7,729 bases of DNA. It comes from Elusimicrobiota bacterium. Lineage in GTDB: Bacteria > CAYTYR01 > UBA6262 > DAOVJB01. The notes beneath the pieces were generated by a model. The model was not told the DNA's origin. It was given only the letters and a program-made list of their open reading frames with translations, and ran no database searches. Each line of letters opens with the position of its first letter. The first letter of the stretch is position 1. Positions 6,599 through 7,729 of the stretch are shown here, piece by piece. Position numbers and translations under genes: made by a program. The stretch lies in NCBI GenBank assembly GCA_030673425.1, contig DAOVJB010000053.1, positions 1 to 7,729 of the forward strand, given 5' to 3'.

Positions 6599-6619
6599 AT
6601 GATACACTCAAGTCTATAA
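6599..6619 (+). promoter_or_regulatory. Possible leader peptide ORF (MIHSSL) overlapping the terminator
   Basis: GGAGGA at 6585-6590 is placed eight bases before an ATG that opens a six-codon ORF (MIHSSL, stop TAA at 6617-6619). The codons cover the whole left arm of the terminator hairpin (6606-6615). A ribosome stalled or moving here would block the hairpin and let transcription continue into the PilZ-methyltransferase gene, the classic attenuation layout. The peptide has two Ser codons but no striking run of one amino acid, so any sensed signal is unclear. It may also be a chance ORF. Confidence 0.35.
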
Positions 6620-6655
6620 TGTAATTTTGATATGTCTTAAGACTTGAGTTTTTTT
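6606..6655 (+). terminator. Intrinsic terminator just upstream of the PilZ-methyltransferase gene
   Basis: ACTCAAGTCT (6606-6615) pairs perfectly with AGACTTGAGT (6640-6649) around a 24-base loop, and seven Ts run from 6649 to 6655. The loop and right arm also hold the perfect palindrome GTCTTAAGAC (6634-6643), which could form a competing smaller hairpin. The terminator ends four bases before the Shine-Dalgarno of the next gene. It may end a small RNA or the upstream transcript, or act as an attenuator. Confidence 0.75.
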
Positions 6656-6659
6656 ATTT

Positions 6660-6665
6660 AGGAGG
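6660..6665 (+). promoter_or_regulatory. Shine-Dalgarno of the PilZ-methyltransferase gene
   Basis: AGGAGG is eight bases before the ATG at 6674 and fixes the start, giving the protein the expected PilZ opening MDRRKFHRI. Confidence 0.8.
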
Positions 6666-6673
6666 ATTATTCT

Positions 6674-7729
6674 ATGGATAGAAGAAAATTTCATAGAATT
6701 GGAGCCACTTTTCCTGTTGAGTTGGAAGTTGAGAATAATATCCCTTCGAAAATAGTTGGTGAGATAGACAATATTAGTGAGGGAGGATTAGGACTTTTTT
6801 TAGAAAGTTCTTTACCTCAATATACCAGTTTTATCATTCGTATAGGGCTACCCTGCGGGCATTTTCCAATAAAAGTTCCTGTACAACTGATATGGGAAAA
6901 TTCTATAGCAGAATATGAAAAATTCAACTGTGGAGTACGGTTCTTAAAATTGGAAGATGAGCATCTTTTTAGTTTAAGAAAGATATTATCTCAGTATAAG
7001 TTCTTAGATAAAAGATTTACTTCTTTAATAGAGAATATGAGGCAATTTCTTAAAGAGATTAAAAATAAGTTTGATAAATTTGATAAAACAAATAGTAATA
7101 AACAAAGAGAAATTAATTTTATTGACGTAAATAAAAGAAATATATTCGATGAATTGACCTATTATTTTGATGAAATTTGGCATGTCGTTGAGGCTTTTGA
7201 TAAAGATAAATATATTATCCATCAGGACTATTGTCAACAAATATTAGGCTATTTACTTTTAGATTTGATTGAAACCAATAGACGAGTATATCGAAAACCC
7301 CTAGGTTATTCTGGTGACTATATGATGATGAATTATATTTATGATTATCATGACAATCAATTCTTAGGAGATTCATCTTACCAAAAGCTTATTAATAATT
7401 ATACTTGTAATATTCCTGTTTCCTGTTCTAATATTAAGCGTAAGAATTTTCTTAAACAAAAAATTTTAGAAACAATGAAAACAAAAAATAGAGCAAAAAT
7501 TATGAGTGTGGGTTGTGGCTCTGTTAGAGAGTTGATAGAATTATTAAAAGAGGGAAAAATTACTGAATCTTTATCATTTGAGTGTTTAGATTTTGAGAAA
7601 AGAGCTTTGGATTACGTTAGCAACGAGATTGATAAGATAGCATTTGACAAGAAGCAAACTTTGTCTATTAGTTATATTCGTAAAAACATAGCAGGCATTA
7701 TAAGGGATAAAAAATTAAAAGAAGAGATT
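6674..7729 (+). CDS. PilZ domain fused to a PhcB-like SAM-dependent methyltransferase, 3' truncated by window edge
   Basis: The visible 352 codons have no stop and run off the right edge. Residues 1-110 are a PilZ domain: RRKFHR (3-8) supplies the RxxxR c-di-GMP motif (R4, R8), NISEGG (33-38) the (D/N)xSxxG motif, and CGVRFLKLEDEHLFSLRKIL its end. Residues 111-150 are a Lys/Asn-rich linker. From about 155 comes a helical segment, then RKPLGYSGDYMMMNYIYDY (207-225) and IKRKNFLKQKI (254-264), which I recall as typical of the domain before the methyltransferase in PhcB-like proteins. The SAM-binding motif I is KIMSVGCGSVRELIEL (275-290) and the motif II acidic residue lies in SFECLDFEKRALDYV (301-315). 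PhcB of Ralstonia makes 3-hydroxy fatty acid methyl ester signals. I infer a c-di-GMP-controlled methyltransferase; the product is unknown. GC content is lower than in the genes before it. Confidence 0.82.
   Translation, partial: MDRRKFHRIGATFPVELEVENNIPSKIVGEIDNISEGGLGLFLESSLPQYTSFIIRIGLPCGHFPIKVPVQLIWENSIAEYEKFNCGVRFLKLEDEHLFSLRKILSQYKFLDKRFTSLIENMRQFLKEIKNKFDKFDKTNSNKQREINFIDVNKRNIFDELTYYFDEIWHVVEAFDKDKYIIHQDYCQQILGYLLLDLIETNRRVYRKPLGYSGDYMMMNYIYDYHDNQFLGDSSYQKLINNYTCNIPVSCSNIKRKNFLKQKILETMKTKNRAKIMSVGCGSVRELIELLKEGKITESLSFECLDFEKRALDYVSNEIDKIAFDKKQTLSISYIRKNIAGIIRDKKLKEEI

Follow-up and report, generated by a model that had tools for sequence, protein, structure and literature searches.

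A gene at the end of the window encodes a PilZ domain and a methyltransferase in one polypeptide, and this fusion, located beside a sensor kinase gene, is real and conserved. We propose, with a probability of about one half, that the protein is a c-di-GMP-gated carboxyl methyltransferase that makes a hydrophobic ester signal, and that this ester is sensed by the adjacent kinase.

The PilZ-methyltransferase gene and its continuation on a second contig

The window is the whole of contig C13 (7729 bases), which belongs to an assembly of 1.3 Mb in 199 contigs. The open reading frame at 6674-7729 codes for 352 amino acids from the ATG at 6674 and has no stop codon up to the window end. The features of the gene and of the region just 5' of it are as follows.

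6606-6656, + strand: hairpin followed by a T-run, terminator-like, just 5' of the ribosome site (fold z -1.39, not significant over the stretch)
6660-6665, + strand: ribosome-binding site AGGAGG of the PilZ-methyltransferase gene (from the sequence)
6674-7729, + strand: PilZ-methyltransferase gene, codons 1-352 of 453, open at the contig end
6677-6967, + strand: PilZ domain, residues 2-98 (Pfam PF07238, E 1.4e-10; E 1.3e-11 in a separate genome scan)
6683-6697, + strand: RxxxR c-di-GMP motif, RKFHR, residues 4-8 (from the sequence)
6770-6787, + strand: [D/N]xSxxG c-di-GMP motif, NISEGG, residues 33-38 (from the sequence)
6968-7126, + strand: inter-domain linker of ~53 residues (from the alignment; helical in a low-confidence model of the relative L015)
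7127-7729, + strand: class I methyltransferase domain, N-terminal two thirds (five-member profile, E 1.2e-91; fold of L015)
7304-7333, + strand: family motif GYSGDYMMMN (GYxGD), residues 211-220 (family alignment)
7508-7522, + strand: SAM-binding motif I, VGCGS, residues 279-283 (sequence and family alignment)
7715-7729, + strand: 15 bases shared exactly with the end of contig C104 (L027) (from the sequence)

The hairpin at 6606-6656 may either mark the end of an upstream unit or act as a leader attenuator. A riboswitch 5' of the gene, considered on account of this leader hairpin, was rejected, as there was no Rfam match and the fold was not unusual.

When the genome was searched with a profile, the C-terminal part of a methyltransferase was located at one end of contig C104. 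This part opens with the codons for LKEEI, the five residues with which the window frame closes. Joining C13 and C104 in frame gives a protein of 453 amino acids, with the last 101 codons contributed by C104, in agreement with the 455 amino acids of L015. The overlap, the reading frame and the homology together make a strong case that the two contigs are joined in this way. The original prediction, which had left the gene open at the contig end, saw a danger that catalytic motifs might be lost past that edge; with the frame extended to its stop through the second contig, C104 is seen to carry both YASGIFDYLTD, a family motif, and the C terminus of the protein in intact form.

The methyltransferase half and its relation to PhcB

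A GCG-type SAM-binding motif I had originally been placed at residues 279-282, together with a GYSGDYMMMN block. The motif stands with a trivial shift of its exact span (GCG at 280-282, VGCGS at 279-283), and the block is present, GYSGDY being residues 211-216. The truncated C-terminal half of the window frame alone matched no Pfam model. The full-length protein L015 from a Candidatus Omnitrophota bacterium, which has the same PilZ-methyltransferase architecture at 37% identity, matches Methyltransf_25, Methyltransf_23 and Methyltransf_12 at E ~1e-5, slightly below the cut-offs, and certain other full-length family members exceed methyltransferase Pfam cut-offs. NCBIfam contains no model naming this methyltransferase family. 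A structural model of the methyltransferase half of L015, built from a four-sequence alignment (pTM 0.70, mean pLDDT 67), resembles class I methyltransferases broadly, the best match being 3ocj (Z 16.4, 218 residues, rmsd 3.4). Structure prediction had been suggested as a check on the original reading; according to this model, the L015 half has a class I methyltransferase fold, and it is the fold rather than the substrate that the model reveals. A full-length model from a two-sequence alignment (pLDDT 39) was set aside.

The Phc system of Ralstonia and Cupriavidus comprises the methyltransferase PhcB, the kinase PhcS, PhcR and PhcQ, and is associated with methyl 3-hydroxymyristate or 3-hydroxypalmitate. 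The original prediction saw a resemblance between the window protein and PhcB. This was examined through the best proxy, a 468-amino acid protein encoded on a Paraburkholderia graminis plasmid, rather than through Ralstonia PhcB itself. The P. graminis protein matches the methyltransferase half of L015 at E 6e-24, and its operon, with the order methyltransferase, kinase, receiver, receiver, resembles phcBSRQ. The P. graminis methyltransferase has Arg22, as in PhcB, where this residue has been named (PMC6989110), and the catalytic histidine of the kinase at position 233 is close to His230 of PhcS (PMC11960443). Leu161 of PhcS and Arg154 of PhcQ were sought in P. graminis as further fingerprints, and neither matched. 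A protein from another phylum (G462) is 39% identical to the P. graminis protein (184 of 468 positions), and the third gene of its operon joins a receiver to a histidine kinase ATPase domain, thereby sharing the layout of PhcR, in which a receiver is combined with kinase domains (PMC8578825).

In a maximum likelihood tree of 74 methyltransferase domains, for which the root is arbitrary and some branches are long, the window sequence and eight relatives form a supported clade. This clade lies inside a 16-row group with the P. graminis and G462 proteins (99/87), and its grouping with the proteins of phcBSRQ-like operons has supports of 99/87 and 97/81. From the comparison with the P. graminis proxy, we infer that the methyltransferase half belongs to a PhcB-related family.

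The resemblance to PhcB thus holds in part. It is favored by the phcBSRQ-like operon of a relative, by the tree clade shared with P. graminis and by the position of the window methyltransferase gene directly 5' of a membrane histidine kinase gene, with regulators near the corresponding pairs of relatives. In contrast, PhcR (receiver and kinase) and PhcQ (receiver) are absent beside the window pair on C104, and the Phc-type N-terminal domain is absent from the window protein, which has PilZ in its place. The sensor of the window kinase also differs, being HisKA_7TM with GAF and PAS matches instead of a Phc-type sensor domain, and the lineage of the window is far from Burkholderiales. The genes after the window kinase were read by eye as an ECF sigma factor followed by an anti-sigma factor; because these genes are found there and PhcR and PhcQ are not, the operon is not classified as Phc. 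With both of the tested Phc features lacking, the window protein is likewise not classified as PhcB. The idea, formed by eye, that the Phc-type N-terminal domain is itself PilZ-like was rejected at an hhalign probability of 0.3%, a value that comes from alignments of low diversity and is weak evidence.

The PilZ half and the exchange of input domains

Both c-di-GMP contact motifs noticed in the original prediction, at residues 4-8 and 33-38, are confirmed as RKFHR and NISEGG, and the PilZ domain that they define scores 41.9 bits against the Pfam PF07238 cut-off of 22.5. The RxxxR motif is conserved in all PilZ-methyltransferases having a complete N terminus. The second motif, [D/N]x[S/T]xxG, is kept in most of the PilZ-carrying relatives and has been lost in the G025 group. 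The same genome has six GGDEF matches above the cut-off and seven PilZ matches, so c-di-GMP is probably made and used in this organism. These observations support the assignment of the PilZ half as the c-di-GMP input of the window methyltransferase, with binding and gating predicted from the sequence.

With a five-member profile (A2) and a limit of E 1e-8, the methyltransferase family was found in 64 of the 237 genomes from the phylum of L015; at E 1e-15, it was found in 19 of 386 genomes, mostly of other groups and including the window's own. The searches of the G020 and G025 phyla reach only 10 and 9 genomes; a CheR match in G020 (L011) was recognized by its sequence and its flagellar neighbor as an ordinary chemotaxis methyltransferase. 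Common to the five profile members are P, GYxGD, motif I glycine, DYLxD, GG, W and R positions, of which P, G, Y, G and D around GYxGD are invariant in all five. About 20 relatives have PilZ at the same position. Since the architecture is conserved in so many relatives, the fusion that was originally read from a single frame is not a chance event; it is real and recurrent.

The input domain on the methyltransferase varies among the relatives. Besides PilZ, it can be a receiver (L067), a receiver together with PilZ (L069 and L072) or HTH_17 (L086), and some members have none. The methyltransferase closest to that of the window, at 63% identity, is the receiver-bearing L067. This exchange supports regulation of the enzyme through a swappable input, for which the version in the window would be c-di-GMP. 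The best reading is that the window protein is one version of a modular system with varying inputs. It is conceivable that the PilZ domain no longer binds c-di-GMP and has been retained only for docking or dimerization, leaving the methyltransferase ungated. This would fit the relatives that function with other N-terminal domains or none, the G025-group PilZ domains without the second motif, and the Phc-type N terminus that is not recognizable as PilZ. However, both motifs are exact in the window protein and in most PilZ-carrying Omnitrophota relatives, and what replaces or precedes PilZ in L067, L069 and L072 is a receiver, another regulatory input. We regard the loss of c-di-GMP binding as quite improbable.

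Pairing of the methyltransferase with an adjacent membrane receptor

On C104, the gene for a kinase of 839 amino acids begins 7 bp past the methyltransferase stop. The kinase has HisKA_7TM, GAF and PAS matches, HisKA and HATPase_c. In the L015 locus, the PilZ-methyltransferase gene overlaps the downstream 7TM kinase gene by 4 bp. To place this gene order in context, we used about 60 loci that were picked by methyltransferase score alone; their genes were called mechanically and identified with small in-house profiles. The next gene is visible in 51 Omnitrophota-group loci, and in 43 of them it is a 7TM kinase gene on the same strand, with gaps of -11 to +27 bp. As a control, a 7TM kinase follows 22 of 441 other genes of the same loci (Fisher p ~4e-37, a value to be read with the relatedness of the loci by descent, as the 43 are not independent events). 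No kinase is found as the next gene in Rhizobium, in Deinococcus and in 8 of the 51 Omnitrophota-group loci. At some of the exceptional loci, the intervening genes encode a GMC oxidoreductase, an FAD oxidase, or two methyltransferases, one of which is ICMT-type. Response regulator genes are frequent on both sides of the methyltransferase-kinase pairs. The methyltransferase-kinase-regulator operon is apparently a general signaling module of the Omnitrophota-group phylum.

An operon of methyltransferase, 7TM kinase and response regulator recurs in L067-L126, also without PilZ. It is also noted that in the Omnitrophota genome G040, the gene of a different, only distantly related methyltransferase (L031:1324-2301) has a 4-bp overlap with that of a 7TM kinase.

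In loci outside the Omnitrophota group, P. graminis, G462 and the G025 group encode as the partner a kinase whose membrane sensor is of another kind, and G524 and G473 encode an adenylate cyclase. One membrane sensor domain is common to these partners. The sensor of the G524 cyclase matches those of the kinases at E 1e-15 to 1e-8, and the G473 cyclase has a weaker match and a more distant copy. The membrane adenylate cyclases that follow the methyltransferase are encoded at L157:4269-5717 and L158:6392-7735, and the Phc-like kinase sensor is shared clearly in L157. Two Phc-like kinases with such a sensor have sub-threshold MASE8 matches.

The combination of a single enzyme with receptors that differ in output would be the pattern expected of a signal synthase and its receptor. 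A membrane receptor gene, for either a kinase or an adenylate cyclase, nearly always adjoins the methyltransferase gene, and two family members match the CheR model weakly (E ~1e-3). It could therefore be suggested that the methyltransferase modifies a protein in a CheR-like manner, most likely the neighboring membrane receptor, such that c-di-GMP tunes the sensitivity of the receptor and not the output of a signal. We consider receptor methylation unlikely. The sensors of the partners differ, HisKA_7TM in some and Phc-like in others, which would not be easy to reconcile with a shared substrate receptor, and further points against it come from the genes associated with acyl chains.

Association with acyl-chain genes

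A FadL-type porin is encoded one gene upstream of the methyltransferase in seven loci (L071, L068, L106, L109, L093, L108 and L084). The porin of L071 matches PF03349 at E 4e-64, and those of the other six loci were assigned by similarity to it. A FadL/TodX-like outer membrane porin is a possible route for a hydrophobic signal. Near the FadL gene of L071, on the opposite strand, is a gene for a second PilZ-like protein of 325 amino acids with the match at its C terminus (L071:4970-5944).

In L160:7102-8922, a patatin-like phospholipase is fused to the same methyltransferase family; a protein kinase gene adjoins this fusion. On an Enterobacter ludwigii plasmid (L130:583-3717), a polyketide synthase ends, downstream of its KS and ACP domains, in the methyltransferase, which may free the chain in the form of a methyl ester. 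The porin, patatin and polyketide synthase associations point to acyl chains as substrates, and would fit methylation of such a chain at its carboxyl group, whether the chain is released or bound to a carrier. The two fusions and the upstream porins speak against a receptor protein as the substrate. So does the comparison with Phc: of the systems whose product is known it is the nearest, and that product is a fatty-acid methyl ester (PMC8578825).

The acyl-related neighbor genes would equally suit an envelope-lipid or fatty-acid methyltransferase that serves in membrane adaptation, with the kinase as a membrane-state sensor of the same pathway and with no cell-to-cell signal. Between methyltransferase and kinase there is an ICMT/phospholipid methyltransferase relative in one locus and a GMC oxidoreductase in another. 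Escherichia coli YnbC, a distant relative (profile E 3.7e-5), is a hydrolase-methyltransferase whose gene lies beside those of putative phospholipid enzymes. YnbC is comparable to the window family as a distant class I methyltransferase, and several family members pass the cut-off of PF12147 (Methyltransf_20), but YnbC has no GYxGD motif and is joined to an alpha/beta hydrolase in one protein. We give membrane adaptation a low probability, as the receptor genes that follow the methyltransferase are of several unrelated output types, a pattern that would suit a signal with its receptor better.

Proposed mechanism and comparison with known systems

In the proposed synthesis and sensing of an ester signal, the methyltransferase half would use SAM to methylate an acyl chain at its carboxyl group; the chain would probably be that of a fatty acid or a 3-hydroxy fatty acid. 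The resulting methyl ester would be hydrophobic and would leave the cell. Binding of c-di-GMP to the PilZ half would change the activity of the methyltransferase, so that the output of the ester would track the c-di-GMP level. The adjacent 7TM histidine kinase would then sense the ester, made by the cell itself or by its neighbors, and relay the signal to response regulators. The substrate, the direction of control by c-di-GMP, the export of the ester and the ligand of the kinase are the steps of this scheme that we infer.

PilZ domains fused or linked to effectors are familiar from BcsA, YcgR and PilZ-DnaK. The window protein is similar to these in that a PilZ domain with both motifs kept is joined, as the likely c-di-GMP input, to an effector, and differs from them in that the effector is a methyltransferase of the small-molecule type. 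The original prediction knew of no characterized example of such a fusion, and likewise no description of a PilZ-methyltransferase fusion was found in the open-access literature that was searched. DSF signaling of the RpfF/RpfR type also ties a fatty-acid-derived signal to c-di-GMP (PMC13220807). In that system the signal alters c-di-GMP, whereas in our proposal a single polypeptide contains the synthase and the domain through which c-di-GMP would act on it.

We tentatively extend the proposal to a class of sender-receiver systems in several phyla, each consisting of a PhcB-family carboxyl methyltransferase and a co-encoded kinase or cyclase. In Omnitrophota and relatives, the varying inputs (PilZ, receiver, both, or HTH) would gate a fatty-acid ester signal through c-di-GMP or phosphorylation.

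Implications

To our knowledge, detailed accounts of quorum sensing by fatty-acid methyl esters are confined to Ralstonia and close relatives. If the proposal is correct, Omnitrophota and other largely uncultured lineages would use the same fatty-acid methyl ester chemistry. The module would also help in finding receptors for such esters, since the receptor gene adjoins the synthase gene, and the two adjacent genes encode all that an in vitro test requires. Quorum sensing usually alters c-di-GMP; here the order would be reversed, with the second messenger acting on the signal synthase itself, and the internal state of a cell may thus govern what it signals to its neighbors.
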